Source: Hyphomonas beringensis
GTDB taxonomy: Bacteria; Pseudomonadota; Alphaproteobacteria; Caulobacterales; Hyphomonadaceae
Assembly: GCF_000682755.1 (NCBI RefSeq)
Contig: NZ_AWFF01000109.1
Location: 1 to 64,000, forward strand
Direction: 5' to 3'
DNA length: 64,000 bases
A program made the translations under genes and the position numbers. A model generated the notes under the pieces. The model was not told the DNA's origin, did not search any database, and saw only the letters and a list, made by a program, of their open reading frames with translations. Below, piece by piece: positions 21,845-34,804 of the stretch (within the stretch, counting starts at the first letter, position 1; the number at the start of each line of letters is the position of its first letter).

Positions 21845-23353
21845 ATGGGGTACTCAGGCGAGCAGCTTCTCTCCCGTTTGCGGGAAGAAGTCTGTGTCGA
21901 TGAAAATGCAAGCCCGGACGGGAAAGGGGAGAGGCGAATCTGCTTTCCTCCGATCTATCCTGAATGGCTGGGGGACCGGGCGTTTGCAGAGGCGCATGGT
22001 GCACGCTTCAATTATGTTGTCGGCGAAATGGCGCGAGGCATTGCCACGCCGCGCATGGTGATCGAGGCGGGCCGGTGCGGCTGTGTTGGTTTTTATGGCA
22101 GCGCTGGGCTACAGCCTGACACGATTGATGCGGGCCTGAGTGAGATCAAATCGGCGCTTGGGCCGGATCAGGTTTCCTGGGGTGCCAATCTTATCCACTC
22201 TCCGCAACAGCCCGGATATGAGGCCAAAGTTGTCGACCTTTTTCTGGAGCGAGGCGTGCGCCGGCTGTCGGCCTCTGCCTATATGCGCCTGTCTCCGGAC
22301 GTGGTGCGATTTACGGCTCTGGGACTGAGCCGCACCAAAGATGGCAGCATCGTACGCGCCAACCATGTCTTCGCCAAAGTCTCCCGCGCTGAGGTGGCCG
22401 AGCAATTCATGGCACCAGCACCTGAAAACATTCTCAGGACCTTGGTTGCAGAGGGGCGCATCAGTGAGGCGCAGGCAGATCTGGCTGCGCAGGTTCCTGT
22501 TGCACTGGATATCACGGCGGAAGCCGATAGTGGCGGCCATACGGATAACCGGGCTGCGGCCCCGCTGTTTTCCTCCCTGTGTCTTGCGCGTGACCGTGTG
22601 ATGGAGCGTTCAGGAATAGACGCCAACACGATCCGCATCGGCCTCGGCGGCGGCATTGCAACTCCGCACGGGGTTGCCGCAGCCTTCCAGATGGGCGCGG
22701 CCTATGTGCTGACGGGCTCGATTAATCAGGCGGCGATTGAGTCCGGACTGTCAGAGCGCGCGCGCCATTTGCTGGCCAAGGCGGGCCCGGCAGATGTGGC
22801 GATGGCGCCTGCAGCGGACATGTTCGAACAAGGGGTTGAAGTTCAGGTTCTGAAGCGCGGAACCCTTTTTGCGATGCGGGCTCGCAAGCTGCATGCGTTT
22901 TATCGGTCTGGCGCATCCTATGAGACGATGAGTGCGGAAGATCGCAAATGGCTGGATGGCGTTCTGGGAGAGCCTTTCCCTGCAGCCTGGCAGCAGACCC
23001 GCGCCTATATTCAGAAAGCCAATCCGAAAGAAGCCGCACGCGCCGAGACAGACGGCAACAAGCGTCTGGCGCTGGTGGCGCGGCGATACCTGTTCATGGG
23101 GGCGCAATGGGCGCGCGATGGCGCGGAAGACCGTGTTTCTGATTACCAGATCTGGTGTGGTCCGGCGCAGGGAGCATTCAATGAGTGGGTGGCGGGGACG
23201 TTTCTTGAGCCGATCGAGAACAGGACCGTACGCCAGATGGCTCTCAATCTGATGGAGGGGGCGGCGCATCTCTCCCGCGCGGGTCAGATGCGGGCCTGCG
23301 GAGTGTCTGTTCCGCCAACAGAGTTTTCTTTCAAGCCGCGACACTTCCTGTGA
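21845..23353 (+). CDS. pfaD: PfaD-type enoyl reductase (NPD/FMN barrel)
   Basis: A 502-residue trans-acting enoyl reductase of PUFA-type lipid synthases. It is an FMN TIM barrel related to nitronate monooxygenase. Visible landmarks are ARGIATPRMVIEAGRCGCVGFYGSAGL near the N-terminus, WGANLIHSP, LDITAEADSGGHTDNRAA (FMN/active-site loop) and IGLGGGIATPHGVAAAFQMGAAYVLTGSINQA. The C-terminal helical extension (DYQIWCGPAQGAFNEWV) is specific to PfaD rather than to general nitronate monooxygenases. It is the first gene of the operon, and its stop overlaps a GTG near the start of the PfaA-type gene. Having the reductase first is unlike the common pfaABCD order. Confidence 0.93.
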   Translation: MGYSGEQLLSRLREEVCVDENASPDGKGERRICFPPIYPEWLGDRAFAEAHGARFNYVVGEMARGIATPRMVIEAGRCGCVGFYGSAGLQPDTIDAGLSEIKSALGPDQVSWGANLIHSPQQPGYEAKVVDLFLERGVRRLSASAYMRLSPDVVRFTALGLSRTKDGSIVRANHVFAKVSRAEVAEQFMAPAPENILRTLVAEGRISEAQADLAAQVPVALDITAEADSGGHTDNRAAAPLFSSLCLARDRVMERSGIDANTIRIGLGGGIATPHGVAAAFQMGAAYVLTGSINQAAIESGLSERARHLLAKAGPADVAMAPAADMFEQGVEVQVLKRGTLFAMRARKLHAFYRSGASYETMSAEDRKWLDGVLGEPFPAAWQQTRAYIQKANPKEAARAETDGNKRLALVARRYLFMGAQWARDGAEDRVSDYQIWCGPAQGAFNEWVAGTFLEPIENRTVRQMALNLMEGAAHLSRAGQMRACGVSVPPTEFSFKPRHFL

Positions 23354-23382: not shown

Positions 23383-26300
23383 ATGACATGCAGGTCTGCC
23401 ATTCCTGTCGCCATTGTGGGCATGGGCGCGATCTTTCCGGGCAGGGGGGATGTAACCGGCTTCTGGCGCGATATCATGGAAGGGCGGGACCTGTTGTCAG
23501 ATGTTCCTGCCAGCCACTGGCTGATCGAGGATTATTATGATCCTGACCCAAAGGCGCCCGACAAGACGTATGGACGTCGTGGCGGCTTCATAGACCCGCA
23601 GGCTTTTGACCCTGTGACTTTTGGCATTCCACCGAAAGCCATGCAGGGGACGGATTCCGCCCAGCTGCTTGCCCTGATAGCTGCGCAGATGACGCTTGAA
23701 GATATTGAACGCGACAGCAAAGGCCTCATAGACCGTAGTCGGACCAGTGTCGTCCTCGGCGTGGCTTCGGCAACGGAACTGACCGCGCACATGGCAGGCC
23801 GTCTTCAGCGCCCTGCCTGGGTCAATGCCATGCGAGACGCGGGCCTTGCGGAAGACGAGGTTCAGGACATCGCGGGCCGGATCGAAGCACATTATGCCGA
23901 GTGGCAGGAAGCCACATTCCCTGGCCTATTGGGGAATGTCGTAGCCGGGCGGATTGCAAACCGTCTGGATTTGGGCGGCAGCAATATGGTGACGGATGCA
24001 GCTTGCGCGTCCAGTCTCGCAGCGCTGCACATTGCCCTGAATGAGCTGCGCCTTGGCGATAGCGACATGGTCCTGACCGGCGGCGTTGACGCGCTGAACG
24101 ACATCCTGATGTATATGTGCTTCTCCAAAACGCCGGCATTGTCGCCAACAGGAGACTGTCGGCCCTTCTCGAATGAGGCGGATGGCACGATGCTCGGCGA
24201 AGGCGTGGGCATGCTGGCCCTGAAGCGTCTTGAGGATGCCGAGCGGGATGGGAACACGATTCACGCTGTTATCCGCGGCATTGGTGCGTCTTCGGATGGC
24301 AAGGGTACGGCCATATATGCGCCCGTTCCCGAAGGACAGGCCAAGGCGCTGAAGAGGGCTTATGAGCAGGCGGGATATGGTCCCGATGCTGTCGATCTGG
24401 TTGAGGGGCATGGCACCGGCACGCGCGCCGGGGATAAAGCCGAACTGGATGGCCTGCATCTTGTCTTCGGAGAAGGGGCAGAAGCGCCATGGTGTGCGCT
24501 AGGCTCCATAAAATCCCAGATAGGCCACACAAAGGCAGCGGCGGGGTCCGCAAGTCTGGTGAAGATGGTCAATGCACTAAGCCGCAAGGTTTTGCCGCCG
24601 ACGATCAAGATTGAAGAGCCTGCCGATGTTATCAAGGACAGCAAGGTATTCTATCTGAATACTGAGCCGCGGCCCTGGGTTAGCCCATCAAAGCGGCCCC
24701 GCAGGGGCTCCGTCAGCTCCTTCGGATTTGGCGGCAGCAATTTTCATGTGACGCTGGAAGAGTATGTTGGCGAACAGGCGGTGCGGCCATATCGTGTGTT
24801 GCCTGCGGAACTGTTCCTGTTCTCCGCAGAGACGCCTGATGCTCTGGCGGCGCAGATCAGGTCCGTATGCCGTGAGATGCCGGAAGCCGATCTGGCCATG
24901 CGTGCGTCGCATACGCATGATGACTTTGAGGCAAAGGCTGGGGCAAGGGCTGCGATCATCGCGGAAAGTCCGGCTGACCTGGTCAGCAAGGGCGCTGCCT
25001 TGGCGGGCCAGATCGAGGCCGGGGAAATTGGTACGCGGCCGCTGAAGCAGGATTGCGCAGCCTCTCTCGCTCCGGCGATTGAAGGCAAGATGGCTTTCAT
25101 GTTTTCGGGGCAGGGCAGCCAGTATGTCGGAATGGGGAGCGATCTTGCGATGGCTTTCCCGGCGGCTCGTGAGATTTGGGATCGCGCCGCCGGTCACAAG
25201 CGAACGGGCGACCTACGCCTCGACCGCCTGGCCTTTCCGCCCACTGCGTTCGACCAGTTGGACTTTGGGACGCAGACCCAGCGGCTGACGGAAATGCAGC
25301 ATGCCCAGCCCGCCATCGCGGCCGTGGCGCTGTCCCAGCTTGCTCTACTGGATGTGCTGGGCCTGAAGGCAGATATGGCGGCCGGCCACAGTTTCGGTGA
25401 AATCATGGCCCTGCATCAGGCAGGTGTCATGGATATTGATACGGCCCTGACTGTATCTGCAGAACGCGGCGCCCATATGGCCGAAGCCGCAAGTGCGTCT
25501 GAAGGTGCAATGCTGGCCGTACAAACCGATGCGGAGACAATAGCGGGGCTTGTAGACAAAACCGGGCTGTCCGTCGTGCTGGCAAATGACAATGCGCCAG
25601 ATCAAATTGTGTTGTCCGGCGCAGTTGAGGCCATTGAAGCCGCGCAACAGGCTTGCGTAGCGGCTGGCTTCAAGGCGCGGCGCCTGCCTGTGGCCACAGC
25701 CTTTCATTCGGAAATCGTAGAGGGGGCTGTCTCGCCGTTCGCCAAAGTGTTGGCAAAGCAGAAACTGCGGAGCCCCAAACTGGATGTCTATGCGAATGCC
25801 ACCGCGAGCAAATATGCCTGCAAGGTGGCTGAGCTGCCTGACTTTATCTCCGGCCAGCTGGTTCAGCCTGTGCGCTTTCGGGAGCAAGTCGAGGCGATGC
25901 ATAGGGCGGGCGCACGGATCTTCGTTGAGATCGGTCCGGGGTCTGTCGTGTCAGGTCTTGTCGGGAATATCCTGCAGGACAAGGAGCATCTAACAGTATC
26001 GCTGGATCACAAGCGGCGTAATGGTGTGAACCAATTCCTGGCAGCCGCAGCCACGCTGGCCGTGTCGGGCATTTCCCTGGACTTCGGAAAGCTGTTTGAG
26101 GCGCTTCCGCCCCAGCCAGAAAAACCGGCGCCCTCAAAACATGCCGTTATGATCTCAGGGGCCAATTACAAGAAACCCTATCCTCCTGAAACAGGGGCGG
26201 CCGGAAAGGCTGCACCGAACCCCCGAAACTTAGCGCGCGAAACTGCGCCAGCCCCCAGACCAGCCCTTCCAGAACAGACAGGCTCTTCTCCCATGACCAA

Positions 26301-27267
26301 AGCTACTCCTCCTGCTCATTCTAACTCTGCCCCGGGAGAGCCGGCCACGAGCACGGTGCCCGCAACCGTTTCGGATCGGATCATTTCAGAAATGTCCGTG
26401 CGGCATTCTGAATATATGTCTGCCATGACGAGTGCGCATACGGCCTTCCTGAGTGTGGCAGGGCAGATTGCTGGCGTGGCAGGGCACCAGCCTTCTGCGC
26501 CGCCACCGCCCCCGGCTGCGCTTCCAGCCCCAGTTTCTGCACCTGCGCCGGCGCCCACCCCGAGTGGGCGTCCGAATGGAAGCTATATGGCTGAGCAGCC
26601 ATCCATGCCTGTGCCAGCTTCGTTACCTGCTCAACCTGCTGCACAAACGACGCCTTCTGCCCCGCCCGCAGCGCCTACGCCTCAGCCAGCTGCAGCGCAG
26701 ATGCCTGCACCTGCCATGAATGGAGACTCGTTGGGGCTGGTGAGGAGCATCATCGCGGAAAAAACTGGGTATCCGGAGGATATGCTGGAAGTCGACATGG
26801 ATCTTGAGGGCGAGTTGGGTGTTGATTCCATCAAGCAGGTCGAAATCCTGTCGACAATTCGTGAGCGCATTCCGGCGCTTCCGGAAATCGACCCTGAGCA
26901 ATTGGTCGAGTTGCGTACCATTGCTGCCATTGCCGATATGATCGATGGCGCGGATATTGGCGCCACGCCCCGCCCGAATGGAGCTGGTGATCCATCTACT
27001 ACTATGCCGGCTGCTGAATCGTCCCCAGCCCCTGCGGGAGGTGTGAGCGCCGATATAGTGCGTGCCCTTATTGCGGAGAAGACTGGCTATCCGGAAGACA
27101 TGCTCGAAGACGATATGGATCTTGAGGGGGAGCTTGGTGTCGACTCCATCAAACAGGTCGAGATTCTGTCTTCCCTGAGAGATCAGTATCCGGACTTACC
27201 TGAGGTGGATCCGGAAGAGTTGACGGAACTCCGAACGATCCGGGCGATTGCCGATTTTTTCAGATAA
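23383..27267 (+). CDS. pfaA: PfaA-type PUFA-synthase subunit: KS-AT-ACP-ACP
   Basis: A 1294-residue multidomain lipid synthase. The ketosynthase (residues 5-465) has Cys208 (DAACASSL), His343 (VEGHGTGT) and His382 (SQIGHTKAA). The acyltransferase (about 570-890) has Ser670 in AAGHSFGE and a downstream His in ATAFHSEI. A long Pro/Ala-rich linker follows. Two near-identical acyl-carrier domains carry phosphopantetheine serines at 1149 and 1255 (LGVDSIKQVEIL). It stops right after the second carrier, where a canonical PfaA would continue into a ketoreductase; that domain lies in the next frame, apparently joined by a -1 frameshift. I prefer the ATG at 23383 (GAGGAA upstream) over a GTG at 23350. 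Confidence 0.92.
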   Translation: MTCRSAIPVAIVGMGAIFPGRGDVTGFWRDIMEGRDLLSDVPASHWLIEDYYDPDPKAPDKTYGRRGGFIDPQAFDPVTFGIPPKAMQGTDSAQLLALIAAQMTLEDIERDSKGLIDRSRTSVVLGVASATELTAHMAGRLQRPAWVNAMRDAGLAEDEVQDIAGRIEAHYAEWQEATFPGLLGNVVAGRIANRLDLGGSNMVTDAACASSLAALHIALNELRLGDSDMVLTGGVDALNDILMYMCFSKTPALSPTGDCRPFSNEADGTMLGEGVGMLALKRLEDAERDGNTIHAVIRGIGASSDGKGTAIYAPVPEGQAKALKRAYEQAGYGPDAVDLVEGHGTGTRAGDKAELDGLHLVFGEGAEAPWCALGSIKSQIGHTKAAAGSASLVKMVNALSRKVLPPTIKIEEPADVIKDSKVFYLNTEPRPWVSPSKRPRRGSVSSFGFGGSNFHVTLEEYVGEQAVRPYRVLPAELFLFSAETPDALAAQIRSVCREMPEADLAMRASHTHDDFEAKAGARAAIIAESPADLVSKGAALAGQIEAGEIGTRPLKQDCAASLAPAIEGKMAFMFSGQGSQYVGMGSDLAMAFPAAREIWDRAAGHKRTGDLRLDRLAFPPTAFDQLDFGTQTQRLTEMQHAQPAIAAVALSQLALLDVLGLKADMAAGHSFGEIMALHQAGVMDIDTALTVSAERGAHMAEAASASEGAMLAVQTDAETIAGLVDKTGLSVVLANDNAPDQIVLSGAVEAIEAAQQACVAAGFKARRLPVATAFHSEIVEGAVSPFAKVLAKQKLRSPKLDVYANATASKYACKVAELPDFISGQLVQPVRFREQVEAMHRAGARIFVEIGPGSVVSGLVGNILQDKEHLTVSLDHKRRNGVNQFLAAAATLAVSGISLDFGKLFEALPPQPEKPAPSKHAVMISGANYKKPYPPETGAAGKAAPNPRNLARETAPAPRPALPEQTGSSPMTKATPPAHSNSAPGEPATSTVPATVSDRIISEMSVRHSEYMSAMTSAHTAFLSVAGQIAGVAGHQPSAPPPPPAALPAPVSAPAPAPTPSGRPNGSYMAEQPSMPVPASLPAQPAAQTTPSAPPAAPTPQPAAAQMPAPAMNGDSLGLVRSIIAEKTGYPEDMLEVDMDLEGELGVDSIKQVEILSTIRERIPALPEIDPEQLVELRTIAAIADMIDGADIGATPRPNGAGDPSTTMPAAESSPAPAGGVSADIVRALIAEKTGYPEDMLEDDMDLEGELGVDSIKQVEILSSLRDQYPDLPEVDPEELTELRTIRAIADFFR

Positions 27268-27286
27268 GGGGCGGCGGAACGCCGCC
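27255..27286 (+). promoter_or_regulatory. Candidate programmed -1 ribosomal frameshift signal
   Basis: The heptamer T TTT TTC (27255-27261) is in the register of the PfaA-type frame and has the X-XXY-YYZ form. An 8-nt spacer that contains the TAA stop follows. Then comes a hairpin: GGCGGCG (27270-27276), loop GAA, CGCCGCC (27280-27286), seven G-C pairs plus a possible G-U. A one-base back-slip would read CAG at 27261 and continue without a stop through a Pro-rich linker into the KR domain. The result would be a 1777-residue KS-AT-ACP-ACP-KR protein. A missing T in the homopolymer, through mutation or sequencing error, is the competing explanation. Confidence 0.6.
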
Positions 27287-27341
27287 TGCGTTCTCCCGCC
27301 CCCTTGCTGATGCCCCACCTCAGCCAGAGTATCAGAGCCGT

Positions 27342-28715
27342 GTGAGAGTGGTCTCGCTTCAGCCTTGCGGCAGTATGGGGCAGGGAAGCCCCCTCCAGGA
27401 TTTGGGGATGATCTCTGTCACCGATGGTGCACCTGACTTGGCGTCTGGCCTGCTTCAGGCCTTGCGGGAAGCTGGCGCTAAAGCTTGCCCGCAGAGCAGC
27501 TCCGAAGCTGCGAATGCGCCATGTGTCATCATTACCGAGGGGGTGAGTGAGGAGGCAATCTCCGACCGCCACTGGCAAGTTCTCGAAGCCTGCAGGGGCC
27601 TGCGGCAAGACGGCCGTAGATTGATCCTGCTAGAACGCGCGCAGGCAGATGAGATAATACGCCTCTCCGGATTGCAGGGGCTGTCCAGAACATTGTCCCA
27701 GGAATGGCCCGATACGGATGTCATAGCGTGGTCGCTTGAGGGGCGTGGAGAGGGCGACGTTTCCAGCGTCATTCAGGCGCTGTCGGAGGGCTTTGGAAAT
27801 GTCGTCTTTGACGGGCAGCAGGCGTATGAGTTGGCGGTCATGGGCGCTCCTGTCCAGCCTCGGCGTGCGCAGAGTGAACGGAATGTCTGGTTCGTTTCTG
27901 GCGGCGGGCGTGGGGTTACAGCCTCCTGTGTCAGTCGCCTGGCGCAGATGCAGCCCGGCTCGGTGTTCCTCTTGGCGGGGCGCTCTCCGATTGTGGAGTG
28001 GCCGCAGCATCTGCCCCCGGCGACGGATATCAAGTCACTGCGAATGGCTCTGATACAGGATGCCAAGGCTCGCGGCATGAAGCCCGCCTTGCCGGAGATC
28101 GACAGACAGGCAAAAACCTTGCTCGCCAGTGCGGAAATCCGTGAGACTCTCGGCGCCATTGAGCGCGCAGGCGCTAGGGCCATTTATCTGACTACGGATG
28201 TGTCTGATGAGGATGGTCTGCGCAAGACGTTGCAGGATGTCACCGGGCAATATGGTCCGGTCACGGGGCTGGTTCATGGGGCCGGTGTTCTGGCGGACAG
28301 TCTTGCCGTCAGGAAGACGCCGGAAGAGTTACGGCGCGTCTTTCGCCCGAAAGTCGAAGGCCTACAGAACATTCTTGCTTGCCTGGATGTGTCCCGGCTT
28401 CGGCATGTTGGTCTGTTCTCGTCGGCTGCGGCTGTGTTCGGCAATGTTGGGCAGAGTGACTATGCGATGGCCAATGCCTGGCTGAATGCCGTAGCATGCC
28501 AACTGTCGCATCAACTGCCGGAAGCTGTCGTGAAGAGCTTCTGCTGGGGGCCGTGGGAAGGGGGCATGGTGGACGAGACACTGGCCACCCATTTTGCCCA
28601 GCGCGGTATCCAGTTGATTGGCCTGGAAGACGGGGCACAAATCTTTGCGGATCAGATCCTTTTCGGTGACCCCAGTGAAACAGAACTGGTTATTGGGGAT
28701 GAGTGGACATCATGA
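27342..28715 (+). CDS. Ketoreductase region of PfaA-type synthase, in the -1 frame
   Basis: A 457-residue open frame holding the PfaA ketoreductase module. A degenerate N-terminal half (structural pseudo-KR) is followed by a short-chain-dehydrogenase core with VSGGGRGVTASCV (NADPH loop), GLVHGAGVLADS, and FSSAAAVFGNVGQSDYAMANAW (Ser and Tyr of the catalytic set). It would reduce the beta-keto group on each elongation cycle. The first possible start, GTG at 27342, has no ribosome site, and the frame is open upstream to the end of the carrier domains at 27261. It is therefore better read as the C-terminal part of the PfaA-type protein than as a separate gene. Its stop overlaps the next ATG. Confidence 0.85.
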   Translation: MRVVSLQPCGSMGQGSPLQDLGMISVTDGAPDLASGLLQALREAGAKACPQSSSEAANAPCVIITEGVSEEAISDRHWQVLEACRGLRQDGRRLILLERAQADEIIRLSGLQGLSRTLSQEWPDTDVIAWSLEGRGEGDVSSVIQALSEGFGNVVFDGQQAYELAVMGAPVQPRRAQSERNVWFVSGGGRGVTASCVSRLAQMQPGSVFLLAGRSPIVEWPQHLPPATDIKSLRMALIQDAKARGMKPALPEIDRQAKTLLASAEIRETLGAIERAGARAIYLTTDVSDEDGLRKTLQDVTGQYGPVTGLVHGAGVLADSLAVRKTPEELRRVFRPKVEGLQNILACLDVSRLRHVGLFSSAAAVFGNVGQSDYAMANAWLNAVACQLSHQLPEAVVKSFCWGPWEGGMVDETLATHFAQRGIQLIGLEDGAQIFADQILFGDPSETELVIGDEWTS

Positions 28716-31700
28716 CAGGCATTTGCCGGTTTGAACCCATCGCGATCGTTGGCCAAGGCTGTGTATTGCCTGACGCATTGACGCCGGACGCCCTCTGGAA
28801 AATCGTGCGTGATCGGCAGATTGTCTATGGGCCAGTACCATCACGCCGCCTTGCGGGCGCGTCTTCGGGGCGACACAGGCCCTATGTTTCGGGGCTGGTC
28901 GAGGGCTTTGATACAGTCTTTGACCCGGAACGTATTCCGGAGGCTTATCGCGCAGCTGTTATGTCTGACCCCGTCTGTGCTTGGCCTGTCCATGCGGCGA
29001 TGGAGGCGTGGCAGGATGCGCGGGCTGCCCGTTCACGCCGCGCCAAGACGGGTGTGTTCGTCGCTAATCTGTCTTATCCCAGTGCGGCGCATGCGGCATA
29101 TGCCGCGTCTGTCTGGTCCGGTGAAACCCCGGGCACGCCTGAAAGTGCTTTCAATTCTGCCTTGCCAGCCCGGCTGATCTCCCAAGTGTTGGAGCTGGGC
29201 GGACCGGCATTCTCGCTGGACGCAGCTTGTGCCTCTTCCCTCTATGCGCTGGAGATAGCCTGTCGCCGCTTGCAATCACGCCAGCTCGATTATGCCGTCG
29301 TTGCGGCTGTGAATGCGGCAGATAATCTGATCCTGCATATCGGCTTCGATGCCCTGAAGGCTCTGAGCCCGTCGGGGACATCCAGGCCTTTCGTGAAGGG
29401 GGCAGATGGTCTCGTCCCGTCTGAGGGCGCTGTTTGCGTTGTGCTGAAGCGGCTGAGCGACGTTACACGCCGCGACAAGGTGTATGGCGTTATTCGCGGG
29501 ATCGGCCTGTCGAATGATGGACGCAGGAAAGGCCTGCTTGCTCCGTCTGGGGAGGGGCAGCTTGAGGCGATGCGTCAGGCATATGCGATGTCCGGGATTT
29601 CTCCGGAAAGCCTTTCATATCTTGAATGTCACGCCACGGGCACACCGACTGGCGATAGTGTGGAGCTGCTTGCCTCAGCGCAAATGTTCCAGAGGGATGA
29701 AGACCTGCCGATCGGTTCCCTTAAAGCGAACACAGGTCATTTGATCACGGCGGCCGGCCTTGCCAGTGTCCTGAAGATGACATCTGCTTTCGAGCATGGA
29801 GTTCTGGCTGCCACTCCCATAGACGGAAACCTGATTGAGTCTGCCAAGGCATCAGGCCTGAGAGTCATTCAGCAGGAAGAAACCTGGCCTGAAGGACCTC
29901 GCCTCGCAGGCATCAGCAATTTCGGTTTTGGCGGAAACAATGCGCATTTGATTCTGGAGCAACATACCCCGACAAAAAACCAGATTCAGGTGAAGCTGCC
30001 GGAACCTTATGACGGCGACATTGCGCTTGTCGCAACAGGCCTGCTGGCCGGTCAGGATCGTGGGAATGAGGCAGTGCTACGCAGGCTGATGAATCACCCT
30101 TTGAAGCCGTCCGGACCCTGCCGAAAAATTGGTGCAGATGCCGCCAGTGCCCGAACGCCGCCCAGAGACCTAGAGGAGGCGGAGCCCCATCAATTGGCTA
30201 TCCTGGATGTTGTGCAGGAGGCTTTGGCTTCTGCCGGTGACATTGATGAGGGGCGCACAGGCGTTTTTGCGGCAATGGGTTGTGCGGCAGATTCTGCGCG
30301 CTGGCTGCTGCGGGAAAGGCTTGCCAGTCTGGTTGGTGCTGCGGGGACCGCTAAAATCGCTGAGATACAGAACCGTATTGCGCCCGCTTTAAGCGCAGCC
30401 ACAGTGCTGGGCGCCATGGCCAACATGACGGCAAACCGGCTGACCTATGCGAAAGACTATCACGGCATGGGCTTTTCCGTTTCGGCGGATGCGGCATCCG
30501 GTCTGGCGGCGCTGGATCTTGCGCTTGAGGCCCTGCGTAATGGGACAATTGATACAGCCATTGTTGCAGCTGCTGACTTTGCTGCCGAGCCTGTCAGGGC
30601 CGGGGCTTTGTCGGATATGCAACTGACAGACTGTCCGGCAGATCAGGCCGCCGCCATCATTCTGAGGCGTGCGGAGGATCTGCCATCTGCAGACCCCTCG
30701 CATTTGGGGAGTGTGAAGGGCGTATCCTGGAAGGCGACATTGGACAGTGCGCCAGCTGCTCTCAGATGTATTTATGGATACGCGCCTTGCGCAGACATCG
30801 TCTTCCGCTTGGCTGTGGAGGCTCAATGTGCTGCGCGTGGGCTGAAAATTACCGACGAAGGCGCGATACCGGATCTGGCGGGTGCGAGTAGGAGTCTGCA
30901 CATCGGCGTACAAGAGACGGCGGTGAATGCTGCAGGCTATGTCGAGTTCCTGCCTGCGGCGCAGCGTGTCGTTGGAGACCCTCTCAGGCCCGCGCCATAT
31001 ATGTTCTGGACTGCAGCCAAAGACCGGGACGCCCTGGCCGTGAAGATCGCAGCAGGGAAAACCGGAGGACGCGGTGCCTGCCGCATCGCGCTGCTGGCGT
31101 CTTCCGCAGAGGAGTTGGAAGCCAAAAAGGCAGAGGCACAAGTATTTCTGTCCCGGGGGGGAGTGCCTTCCGCAAAGGGCATGTACTTTGGCGAAGGCAA
31201 GGCAGAAGGCGAATTGGCCTTCATGTTTACGGGCTCTGCCGCCGTCTATCCCAGGATGGGCCGAGGTCTACTGATGGCCTTCCCGGAACTACGCGAGAAA
31301 TTATCCGGGTTGGACAAGGCGCAGGAGATTGCCCCTCTGCTGATGCGCTCCAGGCTCAGCGAATTTGAGCAATTATGTGCAGGTACACTGATCAGTCAGG
31401 CCCATGCGATTTTGCTGCTGGATATATTGGGCATTAAGCCGCATGCGGCCTTGGGGCTGTCGCTGGGCGAGAGCAATGCGCTGTTTGCTTTCGGCTTCTG
31501 GGATGATCCGGGGGCTTTGCTGGACGAGATCTCCGATGCTGCGATGTACGAACGTCATCTCGGGGGTGACTTTGAAACAGCGCGTGAGGCATGGGGGCCC
31601 AATGTCCCTTCCGATTGGAGCAATTGGCGCGTACAGGCCCCGCTGGAAAATGTGCGGAGAGAGGTTGCTCGCCAGGCCGGCGTGGAAATCACGATCATTT

Positions 31701-34700
31701 ATTCTGATCACGACTGCATGATTGGCGGCCCTTCCGAGGCCTGCCGTAGGGTCTGCGAGGCTTTGGGGCGTGGATCCGGCGCAAAGATGCACCAGAATTT
31801 GATCGTGCATGCAAAGGCCATGAAACCCTTTGAGGAAACCTGGCGCAAATTGCACACGCGCAAAGTCCATGCTGGCCCGAAAGTGCGTCTCTATGCCAAT
31901 GCTGTGAATGCGGCCTATGCACCTGACAGCGAGACGGTTGCGGACATGCTGACTCGTCAGGCTGTCGATACGGTCGACTTTCCCAAGACAGTCCTTCAGG
32001 CCTGGGAGGATGGTGTGCGGACATTTGTCGAGCTGGGGCCCCGCGATACACTGACCCAGTCATTACACCGCATCCTGAAAGGCAAACCCTTTACCGCTGT
32101 TGCGGCAGACAGGATCGAGACCTCTGATCTTGCGCAAATGGCTGAACTGGCCAGCGTATTGTTTGCTGAGGGGCGCCAGGTCCGCATGAAGCAAATTGAC
32201 ACTGCGCTGTCTGAGGCACGGGCCAATGCGTTGCCGCGACCGGAAAAATGGTCTGTCACGCGGGATGTGCCCTATGCGCAGCCAGCTGTCCCTGAGCTGG
32301 CCCGGTGCGTGGCTCTGCCATGCGCGCCGCAGCGTCCACCTTTTAGCTATCCGAAAGCTGAGCCTGTTACTCATTCAGATGGTTTTGTTGCTTTTCCCCC
32401 GCCACCAAAGGACAGGCCATTACCGCATCCGAGAAAAGTTGTGAGCGGGCGAGAGCCTTTGCTGAAGCGTTCGCCCTGTGGTCCGTCCTGGGACTATGAG
32501 GCAATTGACGCGTCTGCGCGCGGAAAGATGTCTGATCTTTTCGGGGAGGACTTCCGGCAACAGGATAGATATGCCCGACAGGTACGCCTGCCTGCACCAC
32601 CCTTGTTACTGGTGGACCGCATTACCGGCATAGATGCAGAGCCGGGGATTGAAGCCAAGGGAGTGATTTGGACTGAAACAGATTTGAGTCCGGATCAGTG
32701 GTTCATCCATGATGGGCGGATCAGACCGGGGCCGCTGATAGAGTGCGGTCAGGCAGACCTCACGCTGATTGGCTGGATGGGCGCGGATTTCCGCAATCAG
32801 GATGAGCGTGTTTACCGTCTGTTGGGGTGCGAGATCACTTTCCATGAGGGTGGGCTGCCTGAGCCTGGCGATACACTTCGCTTTCAAATCGAGATCACCG
32901 GTCACGCCAAGTTGGCGGATGTCCGAATGTTCTTCTTCCAGTATGATTGCTATGTCGGAGACCGGCCTGTTTTCTCGGTCCGAAATGGCCAGGCGGGCTT
33001 TTTCAGCGATGCAGAACTGGCCGCAGGCAAGGGAGTTGTCTGGTCGCCTGAACAAGACGGTCCGCCTACGGCAGAGGCGAGGTCTTTCAAAGCGGAGCAG
33101 GCCAGTGCAAAGAGGGCATTCTCGCGGAAAGACCTCGATGCTTTCCGCCAAGGGGATGTTTATGCCTGTTTTGGGGATGGGTTCGAGCTTGCGGCCGCGC
33201 AGTCCCGGCCGGCTCATCTGCCAGACGGCAAGCTGGATTTATTCGATAATGTGGAGATATTTGATCCCAAGGGCGGCCCATGGGGCAGGGGGTATCTGAA
33301 GGCGCGTGCAGCTGTCGCGGCTGACATGTGGTTCTATGATGGCCACTTCCATGAAGACCCGTGCATGCCTGGAACCCTGATGGCTGAGGCGGCCGTACAG
33401 GCGATGGAGTTTTACGCGGCGGCCGCAGGGCTGGCGCTTGAGCGCGATGGGTATGTTTTTGAGCCTGTGCCCGGACATATGGCGCAGTTCATATGCCGCG
33501 GCCAGGTCATTCCTGATCAGGCCCATGACCTGACATATGAAGTCTTCATTGATGAGATCATTGATGGAGATACGCCGGAAATCTATGCGGCCCTACTGGC
33601 AAGTTCGGACGGCAAGAAAGTGTTCTACTGCCCCCGGTTCGGCTTGCGCCTCAGGCGCACCTGGCCTGTGCCAAGACAGGACAAGCAACCTCGCCGTATC
33701 GGCCCACAACAGGAAAGCCGGGGGGACTATGCTGCTTTGCTGGATTGCGCGAATGGCGCGCCATCGGCTGCCTTTGGAGACATGTATAGGCGGTTCGATC
33801 ATGAGGGCATCGTGCCGAGATTGCCGCAGCCGCCTTATCATATGATGACGCGTGTCATGCAGGTCTCCACCCGGCCGGGCGTTCAGGAAATTGGTGCAGC
33901 GGTACGGTGTGAATATGATATTCCTCCGCAGGCGTGGTATTTCCAGGACAATGGCAATGGCGCCATGCCTTTTGCTGTGCTGTCTGAAATTGCCCTTCAG
34001 CCATGTGGCTGGCTGGCCAGTCATTGCGGCTTTGCCCTGTCTGGCGCCCTCAAATTTCGCAATCTTGAAGGCGAGGGGCATCTCTACAGGGAAGTTTTCC
34101 CGAAGGACGAGATGCTTGTGATTGAGAGCCGCTTGTCGAGTTTTTCGCGAGTCGGCCCAATGACGATCGTATCCTTTGATGTTGCCGTATCTTGCAAGTC
34201 GGATGAAAAAGTTTTGGATCTGAAGACGCAGTTTGGCTTCTTCCCGTCCGGCGCGCTGGCCCGTCAGGCAGGTCTTTCTGACAAGCCGCACTTCAGCTCA
34301 GCCTATGCTCTGCCGTCCAAGGCCGTCGTTGTGGAAGATGAGCAGGCCTTGCTGGCGCGTGGCCAGCTTTGCATGCTGGATGGTGTTGATCATTTTGATC
34401 CGAAGGGCGGCGAGGTGGGGCTTGGCCTGATCCGCGGACGACAAGCGGTCGATCCGCATGCCTGGTACTTCAAGGCTCATTTCTATCAGGATCCGGTCCA
34501 ACCTGGCTCTCTTGGGCTCGACGCGCTGGCGCAATTGTTGGCGAGGGCCATGCTGCTCAAAGGCCTACACGCCAACATGGCCAAGCCGAGATTTGAGACG
34601 CTTGCGAGCGACCGCCCCGTGAAGTGGAGCTATCGTGGTCAGGTCACCCCGGACAAGAAAGAGGTGGTTACCGTGATGGAAATCATTGCGATTGACCATC

Positions 34701-34804
34701 AGGAAGGCCGTGTCGTTGCAACCGCGCGCGGCAGTCTCTGGCGGGATGATTTGCGCGTCTATGAGGTCGCGGAGATGAGCCTCGCCCTCGTCGACGTATC
34801 CTGA
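28712..34804 (+). CDS. pfaC: PfaC-type PUFA-synthase subunit: KS-CLF-AT and two DH didomains
   Basis: A 2030-residue synthase. The active ketosynthase has Cys173 (DAACASSL) with ECHATGT and KANTGHL. A chain-length-factor-like KS has the active Cys replaced (SADAASGL, about residue 592). An acyltransferase follows with Ser917 in GLSLGES. Four hot-dog folds complete it. The first is a pseudo-DH (WFIHDGRIRPGP). The second is an active FabA-type DH with His1545 (DGHFHEDPCMPG). The third is a pseudo-DH (WYFQDNGNGAMPF), and the fourth an active DH with His1923 (KAHFYQDPVQPG). The AT in this position replaces a separate PfaB. No acylglycerol-phosphate acyltransferase follows. The start ATG overlaps the KR stop by 4 nt. 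No PfaE-type phosphopantetheinyl transferase is in the window. Confidence 0.92.
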   Translation: MTGICRFEPIAIVGQGCVLPDALTPDALWKIVRDRQIVYGPVPSRRLAGASSGRHRPYVSGLVEGFDTVFDPERIPEAYRAAVMSDPVCAWPVHAAMEAWQDARAARSRRAKTGVFVANLSYPSAAHAAYAASVWSGETPGTPESAFNSALPARLISQVLELGGPAFSLDAACASSLYALEIACRRLQSRQLDYAVVAAVNAADNLILHIGFDALKALSPSGTSRPFVKGADGLVPSEGAVCVVLKRLSDVTRRDKVYGVIRGIGLSNDGRRKGLLAPSGEGQLEAMRQAYAMSGISPESLSYLECHATGTPTGDSVELLASAQMFQRDEDLPIGSLKANTGHLITAAGLASVLKMTSAFEHGVLAATPIDGNLIESAKASGLRVIQQEETWPEGPRLAGISNFGFGGNNAHLILEQHTPTKNQIQVKLPEPYDGDIALVATGLLAGQDRGNEAVLRRLMNHPLKPSGPCRKIGADAASARTPPRDLEEAEPHQLAILDVVQEALASAGDIDEGRTGVFAAMGCAADSARWLLRERLASLVGAAGTAKIAEIQNRIAPALSAATVLGAMANMTANRLTYAKDYHGMGFSVSADAASGLAALDLALEALRNGTIDTAIVAAADFAAEPVRAGALSDMQLTDCPADQAAAIILRRAEDLPSADPSHLGSVKGVSWKATLDSAPAALRCIYGYAPCADIVFRLAVEAQCAARGLKITDEGAIPDLAGASRSLHIGVQETAVNAAGYVEFLPAAQRVVGDPLRPAPYMFWTAAKDRDALAVKIAAGKTGGRGACRIALLASSAEELEAKKAEAQVFLSRGGVPSAKGMYFGEGKAEGELAFMFTGSAAVYPRMGRGLLMAFPELREKLSGLDKAQEIAPLLMRSRLSEFEQLCAGTLISQAHAILLLDILGIKPHAALGLSLGESNALFAFGFWDDPGALLDEISDAAMYERHLGGDFETAREAWGPNVPSDWSNWRVQAPLENVRREVARQAGVEITIIYSDHDCMIGGPSEACRRVCEALGRGSGAKMHQNLIVHAKAMKPFEETWRKLHTRKVHAGPKVRLYANAVNAAYAPDSETVADMLTRQAVDTVDFPKTVLQAWEDGVRTFVELGPRDTLTQSLHRILKGKPFTAVAADRIETSDLAQMAELASVLFAEGRQVRMKQIDTALSEARANALPRPEKWSVTRDVPYAQPAVPELARCVALPCAPQRPPFSYPKAEPVTHSDGFVAFPPPPKDRPLPHPRKVVSGREPLLKRSPCGPSWDYEAIDASARGKMSDLFGEDFRQQDRYARQVRLPAPPLLLVDRITGIDAEPGIEAKGVIWTETDLSPDQWFIHDGRIRPGPLIECGQADLTLIGWMGADFRNQDERVYRLLGCEITFHEGGLPEPGDTLRFQIEITGHAKLADVRMFFFQYDCYVGDRPVFSVRNGQAGFFSDAELAAGKGVVWSPEQDGPPTAEARSFKAEQASAKRAFSRKDLDAFRQGDVYACFGDGFELAAAQSRPAHLPDGKLDLFDNVEIFDPKGGPWGRGYLKARAAVAADMWFYDGHFHEDPCMPGTLMAEAAVQAMEFYAAAAGLALERDGYVFEPVPGHMAQFICRGQVIPDQAHDLTYEVFIDEIIDGDTPEIYAALLASSDGKKVFYCPRFGLRLRRTWPVPRQDKQPRRIGPQQESRGDYAALLDCANGAPSAAFGDMYRRFDHEGIVPRLPQPPYHMMTRVMQVSTRPGVQEIGAAVRCEYDIPPQAWYFQDNGNGAMPFAVLSEIALQPCGWLASHCGFALSGALKFRNLEGEGHLYREVFPKDEMLVIESRLSSFSRVGPMTIVSFDVAVSCKSDEKVLDLKTQFGFFPSGALARQAGLSDKPHFSSAYALPSKAVVVEDEQALLARGQLCMLDGVDHFDPKGGEVGLGLIRGRQAVDPHAWYFKAHFYQDPVQPGSLGLDALAQLLARAMLLKGLHANMAKPRFETLASDRPVKWSYRGQVTPDKKEVVTVMEIIAIDHQEGRVVATARGSLWRDDLRVYEVAEMSLALVDVS

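Follow-up and report, generated by a model that had tools for sequence, protein, structure and literature searches.

The window analysed here, 64,000 nt of Hyphomonas beringensis DNA (GCF_000682755.1, contig NZ_AWFF01000109.1, positions 1-64,000, forward strand), contains a gene for a PfaA-type secondary-lipid synthase whose ketoreductase (KR) is encoded in the -1 frame relative to the upstream domains. We propose that this gene uses a canonical -1 programmed ribosomal frameshift, giving both a KR-less and a KR-bearing PfaA, and put the probability of this reading at roughly 0.93. Pfam finds KS, AT and two ACPs 5' of the junction and KR 3' of it, and the 0 frame reads GCC GAT TTT TTC AGA TAA, with the stop at 27265-27267 directly after the second carrier domain. 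The KR frame lies at -1 to PfaA and runs open from 27204 until the stop codon at 28713-28715, so that no stop separates the slippery heptamer T TTT TTC from the linker and KR. The first ATG, GTG or TTG in this frame is a GTG at 27342, which lacks a Shine-Dalgarno (SD) core. All of this, including the register of the heptamer, agrees with the original prediction, which had been made from this stretch alone. Its recurrence among relatives shows this -1 frameshift signal, classic in layout, to be real and conserved; we found no earlier report of one in such a gene.

In the proposed mechanism, ribosomes on ...GAT TTT TTC would be held up by a stem-loop 6 nt downstream while their P- and A-site tRNAs sit on U UUU UUC, or on U UUU UUU in most relatives. 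Ribosomes that do not slip would stop one codon later and yield KS-AT-ACP-ACP with the second ACP complete, and those slipping back by one base would run past the stop and continue through a flexible linker into the ketoreductase. According to the available text of PMC4066793, U_UU.U_UU.C and U_UU.U_UU.U shift at >0.1% in E. coli even without a stimulator. The frames, heptamer, spacing, stem and conservation are read from sequence; from them we infer the slipping and its rate, the use of both forms and a mix that would set the number of KR per KS/ACP. The KR stop sits on the start of the next gene, an arrangement usually read as coupling, and the shift rate may therefore limit PfaBC: only shifted ribosomes would bring coupled translation to pfaBC, and the rate would also set the PfaBC dose. 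That a stem-dependent shift rate responds to temperature is pure speculation.

Conservation of the heptamer and of the reading frames

Searching 105 genomes of the Hyphomonadaceae for KR gave matches in 57 at E <= 1e-60, and 55 junctions were readable; G014 and G017 were left out because the contig ends before the junction (G and L numbers are our handles for genomes and loci). The 55 comprise 38 junctions of the window's genus and 17 of two further genera, one of them including Henriciella marina. In every one, TTTTTT stands in identical register with T (38) or C (17) as the next base, giving U UUU UUY, and after this heptamer come one codon, the stop 6 nt on, and then GGG. The identity of the stop varies (TGA 21, TAG 19, TAA 15). 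This recurrence of heptamer, spacing, stop and GGG is more than chance. The -1 frame is open and encodes the conserved KR in 54 of the 55. Relatives with an uninterrupted frame and no heptamer, named in the original prediction as evidence that would count against it, did not appear. In a 15-sequence alignment the KR proteins are 42-79% identical to that of the window, showing that the signal has outlasted much protein change.

The codons of the heptamer are also more uniform than the protein demands. Its first Phe codon is TTT in 55/55 junctions, and upstream, over the retrieved stretches of these ORFs (open reading frames), Phe is encoded by TTC 340 times and by TTT 93 times; the preceding Asp is GAT in 53/53 against a background of 892 GAC and 552 GAT, all of these counts coming from related sequences and not from independent trials. 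The wobble bases of Asp and Phe are thus fixed, a conservation across species beyond protein need.

A stem-loop at a fixed distance from the heptamer

We aligned 49 distinct junctions, excluding the deletion strain L008 described below. All alignment gaps are 3 nt long, which is what a coding -1 frame would lead one to expect. In the RNAalifold consensus, columns 14-19 pair with 43-48, and there is an inner helix. Of 392 cells, 95.4% are paired, compared with 52.3-59.2% when the pairing is slid by 1-3 columns, and double-sided changes occur at four of the eight pairs (37 cells versus 9.8 in shuffles). When 47 distinct 45-nt segments were folded singly, 45 of them, all but L008 and L029, formed a two-part stem starting exactly 6 nt past the heptamer, with folding z-scores averaging -2.5 over the 47. 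A compensated stem thus lies within the approximately 5-9 nt downstream at which a stimulatory structure is expected. The mean folding energy is -25.4 kcal/mol at the junction and -7.8 to -13.9 at 36 other positions from -180 to +360, a comparison to be read with the caveat that guanine-cytosine content also peaks at the junction.

The alignment across Hyphomonadaceae, proposed with the original prediction, confirmed the heptamer and a stem with compensatory changes, and led to a different structure from the one first drawn. That drawing placed a 7-bp hairpin of G-C pairs with a GAA loop (27270-27276/27280-27286) behind an 8-nt spacer. The energy of this hairpin in the window is -13.8 kcal/mol, half that of the conserved stem, and L002, a near relative, lacks one of its pairs and gives -10.1. 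The stem that recurs in relatives is stabler (-27.3 kcal/mol in the window, -25.2 in L002), and its distance from the heptamer is 6 nt; hairpin and spacer were revised. An intrinsic terminator on the + strand was likewise discarded, as the T-run precedes the stem and none follows it.

A covariance model, built from 49 of the sequences that it then found, recovers the junction at E <= 7.5e-7 in 54 genomes of the family and weakly in L008 (0.024); it gave no other match below 0.1 in the 105 family genomes. Rfam had 0 matches at E <= 1 for the junction region at 27 kb (26900-27700).

The ketoreductase frame

Over residues 17-29 of the linker, differences per codon position 1, 2 and 3 are 0.20, 0.17 and 0.34 (47 related, overlapping pairs), and this third-position bias indicates that the linker is protein-coding in the -1 frame. 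The AlphaFold model of the KR frame, made from a 15-sequence alignment, has a mean pLDDT (predicted local distance difference test) of 86.4, with residues 1-22 disordered and the first strand at residues 30-37. Its best Foldseek matches are the two-part polyketide synthase (PKS) ketoreductases 5ktk and 2fr0.

Weighing the frameshift against other explanations

Several observations speak against the proposed frameshift or narrow the arguments for it. An upstream SD-like stimulator, an optional element, is present in 0 of 55 junctions (SD core of at least 4 nt). Further pair types in the stem, 11 versus 10.2 in shuffles, are not unusual (183 of 500), and an individual z-score below -2 is reached by only 29 of the 47 folded segments. 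The window's own PfaA ORF has a mild Phe bias (TTC 21 versus TTT 14), so that the codon argument rests on the family and not on the Hyphomonas beringensis genome alone. In Hyphomonas sp. L-53-1-40 (L008), the distal arm of the stem and the linker are hit by a deletion that displaces KR from the -1 frame, which closes 11 codons past the stop; KR lies in the 0 frame beyond, its ORF still open. This locus, a natural variant in which the signal is broken or altered, is either damaged, mis-assembled or expressing KR by another route. Finally, ATG, GTG or TTG occurs at or before residue 31 of the KR frame in 35 of 54 loci, mostly as the codon of a conserved Val, and KR may have its own initiation at some loci.

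The same fusion could arise during transcription, if RNA polymerase added a U at the T6-T7 run so that part of the mRNA encodes the fused protein. A one-base insertion would yield the identical product, the T-run is present in 55/55 junctions, and A9-A11 runs stand at the same boundary in other phyla. The runs in Hyphomonadaceae, however, are T6 (17/55) or T7 (38/55) and never longer, and thus stay below the nine or so A or T from which, according to the available text of PMC1088944, selection against slippage is visible in many bacteria. The fixed 6-nt spacer and the covarying stem fit a ribosomal stimulator, and we regard polymerase slippage as unlikely in this family.

A separate KR protein, initiated at a start of its own or by ribosomes re-initiating past the PfaA stop, would draw on the start codons just mentioned, and split pfaA genes of other lineages are described as two genes in the accessible part of PMC3098273. 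Yet a start codon together with an SD core of at least 4 nt occurs within KR residues 1-60 in only two of 54 loci. In 19 loci no start occurs up to residue 31, in 13 none up to residue 37 and in six none up to residue 60; in the 13 loci where the first one lies beyond the strand at 30-37, a free KR from a canonical start would miss part of the fold. The start position is not conserved either. In the 34 loci with the Y...VR motif the Val codon is GTG in 19, GTA in 11, GTT in three and GTC in one, a mixture which argues that the position is not selected as a start. Since a separate KR would also leave heptamer, wobble bases, spacing and stem unexplained, we consider it very improbable.

Homopolymers are error-prone and can be phase-variable, and the GeneTack authors sort many frame transitions in this way (PMC3711429, available text), but a sequencing error, recent frameshift mutation (pseudogene) or phase variation at the T-run is a negligible prospect here: the register is identical in 55/55 junctions, including the one-contig assemblies G006, G010, G020, G027, G039, G040 and G061, PfaA and KR share one uninterrupted frame in 0/55, KR is conserved over its length, and a single-assembly error does not explain a heptamer register and -1 KR common to three genera. 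Register, stem and frame conservation among relatives thus support the -1 recoding interpretation put forward originally.

Gene cluster

The features of the locus are collected in Table 1. The sequence GAGGAA lies just 5' of the ATG at 23383. By Pfam, the order KS-AT-tandem ACP-KR with pfaD and pfaBC neighbours is that of a PfaA of the secondary-lipid (polyunsaturated fatty acid (PUFA)-type) synthases; the class is assigned by architecture, which does not fix the product as a polyunsaturated fatty acid. The start of the downstream KS gene lies within -5 to +5 nt of the KR stop in 44 of 52 relatives placed by motif (8 loci were not found by motif, and 2 more are cut by contig ends), and 23 of these 44 contacts are one-base-type overlaps, ATGA or GTGA.

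Table 1. Coordinates of the frameshift signal and the surrounding genes in the window.
Feature	Coordinates	Strand	Basis and remarks
PfaD-like enoyl reductase gene	21845..23353	+	First in cluster; ORF; Pfam FabD_helical_ins and weak NMO; PfaD label assigned from gene position and domains
PfaA-like 0-frame ORF, KS-AT-ACP-ACP	23383..27267	+	TAA directly after second ACP; ORF and Pfam
Slippery heptamer T TTT TTC, -1 shift register	27255..27261	+	Sequence; T TTT TTY in 55/55 family junctions
-1 frame: disordered linker of ~22 residues, then complete two-part KR	27255..28715	+	ORF, Pfam, alignment, structure model
6-nt spacer: one codon and 0-frame stop TAA	27262..27267	+	Equal length in 55/55
Stimulatory stem-loop (predicted)	27268..27302	+	Lower stem 27268-27274/27296-27302; upper stem 27276-27282/27288-27294; loop 27283-27287
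PfaBC-like gene, KS-CLF-AT-DH3 by Pfam order	28712..34804	+	ATG overlaps KR TGA (ATGA, 28712-28715); CLF assigned from second ketoacyl-synt stretch

Origin of the signal and the same boundary in other lineages

Beyond the family members, three homologue genomes were found in the order set and four in the class set. In these seven, in G1036 of the phylum set and in Azospirillum L224, that is in 9/9 alphaproteobacterial loci outside the family, ACP and KR share one frame. The split loci of the family form one clade in the KR tree (SH-aLRT, Shimodaira-Hasegawa-like approximate likelihood ratio test, 90) beside the fused alphaproteobacterium L153; this tree holds 96 chosen rows, 17 of them from the family, and was made by a quick method with many weak branches. 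The simplest history suggested by these sequences is a single gain of the signal in the ancestor of the three genera. On the same tree, split versus fused needs 7 changes, and the splits at A-runs are placed apart from the family clade; L057, from the same genome as L180 and with an A12 run, was entered as fused.

A search centred on the SAR324 phylum matched 30 of 52 genomes, with the best place per genome read and two further places left out (loci L158-L187, L067, L079, L081, L083 and L095, compared by run length, stop distance and open length). In 22 of the 30 loci the gene is split: KR is in the -1 frame, and the 0-frame stop closely follows a run of A9-A11 (A9 in 12 loci). Another four are in one frame yet retain A10-A12, a state compatible with ribosomal shifting and no less with transcriptional slippage or phase variation. 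The remainder are one locus in one frame without a run, L181 with A10 and a -1 frame closing after 213 codons, and two loci cut by contig ends.

Among 120 genomes of a cyanobacterial order, 22 had matches, at 28 places in all. The Pfa-like synthases at L188, L189 and L190 (the L054 genome) are split into -1 at GCTGAAAAAAAAACT (A9) between ACP and KR; L206 and L208 are split without a run, four places are fused, and 19 are stand-alone KR genes or could not be assigned. At L211 and L118, an A9 stands just before the stop of an ACP-bearing ORF, and the matched KR gene lies ~1 kb further on. A pseudomonadotal family (6 of 74 genomes matched) yielded a split into -1 at A10 (L144/L217), four fused places and one without assignment.

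Splits without a slippery run were found at L143 (KR frame overlapping by 337 nt) and L145 (ATG directly after the stop) of the phylum-wide set, at the cyanobacterial L206 and L208 (ATG at +23) and at Acidimicrobiales L077. On plasmid pPP1 of Persicobacter psychrovividus (L222) KR is split into -1 without a run as well, and Persicobacter sp. JZB09 (L223) is fused; the L222 split may be an error or real. Because such splits exist, a split at the ACP|KR boundary is by itself no evidence of recoding, which complicates a simple story. The A-run loci may reflect polymerase slippage, ribosome slippage or phase variation, which are not separable here. Still, we think it fairly probable that the ACP|KR boundary is a recurrent recoding point, invented separately as a ribosomal signal, U UUU UUY with a stem, in Hyphomonadaceae and as A9-A11 slippage in the SAR324 phylum, in some cyanobacteria and in a further pseudomonadotal genome, with the mix of KR-less and KR-bearing chains adaptive for reductase stoichiometry and, in Hyphomonadaceae, also for PfaBC dose.

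If the frameshift reading is true, megasynthases of the fatty-acid and polyketide type can be programmed mixtures of domain-complete and domain-lacking chains, which would change the view of their stoichiometry, product control and heterologous expression. The same boundary, split in distant lineages at different slippery sequences, makes it directly testable whether KR dosage matters in iterative synthases. There is also a warning for annotation, in which such a gene appears as two, an orphan reductase next to a PKS without KR.

Comparison with known systems

Well-supported cellular cases of -1 frameshifting are few, with dnaX as the standard, and the others are found largely in mobile elements. 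The fused PfaA of Shewanella, Vibrio, Photobacterium and others has the same KS-AT-ACPn-KR order and a homologous KR but, unlike the gene described here, carries ACP and KR in one uninterrupted frame. Shared features are also seen in the secondary-lipid synthases of Type D and Type H that have a 'split pfaA' (PMC3098273; Shulse and Allen 2011): pfaA is divided after the ACPs, KR is coded separately and pfaBC is fused. In the text available to us the split is described as two genes, and the comparison is by description only; the word 'frameshift' is absent from the main text of that paper. A search of a plasmid collection for Type H relatives gave 12 records, none covering >80% of the query.

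Like the original prediction, which had known of no recoding in a Pfa-type synthase, our search of literature largely outside subscription journals found no report of it in polyketide, fatty-acid or PUFA synthases. The available parts of PMC3711429, PMC5009743, PMC3098273, PMC4066793 and PMC1088944 report none in fatty-acid or polyketide synthases; one GeneTack cluster named 'Polyketide cyclase' is a +1 case classed as translational coupling (PMC3711429, available text).

Transposases of the IS3 and IS1 families resemble PfaA in having a slippery heptamer, a hairpin a few nt downstream and a longer fusion product after the -1 shift (PMC4066793, PMC3711429, available text). They belong to mobile elements and mostly use A-rich heptamers, whereas PfaA is a chromosomal biosynthetic gene with U UUU UUY.

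Another parallel is dnaX, which is expressed by -1 ribosomal frameshifting in E. coli and by transcriptional slippage at A9 in Thermus thermophilus (PMC1088944, available text). As in the gene of the Hyphomonadaceae, one gene gives two products that differ in their set of C-terminal domains. The shifted product of dnaX is short and its signal includes an SD-like stimulator, whereas the shifted product of PfaA would be long and an SD-like element was not found; PfaA, unlike dnaX, is a lipid megasynthase. The likeness extends to the boundary as a whole, where a U or A run with a downstream stem occurs in one lineage and A9 in another, and the two may act at the level of the ribosome or of the polymerase. 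By this analogy, the putative ribosomal signal in Hyphomonadaceae and the A-run splits elsewhere suggest a dnaX-like convergence.

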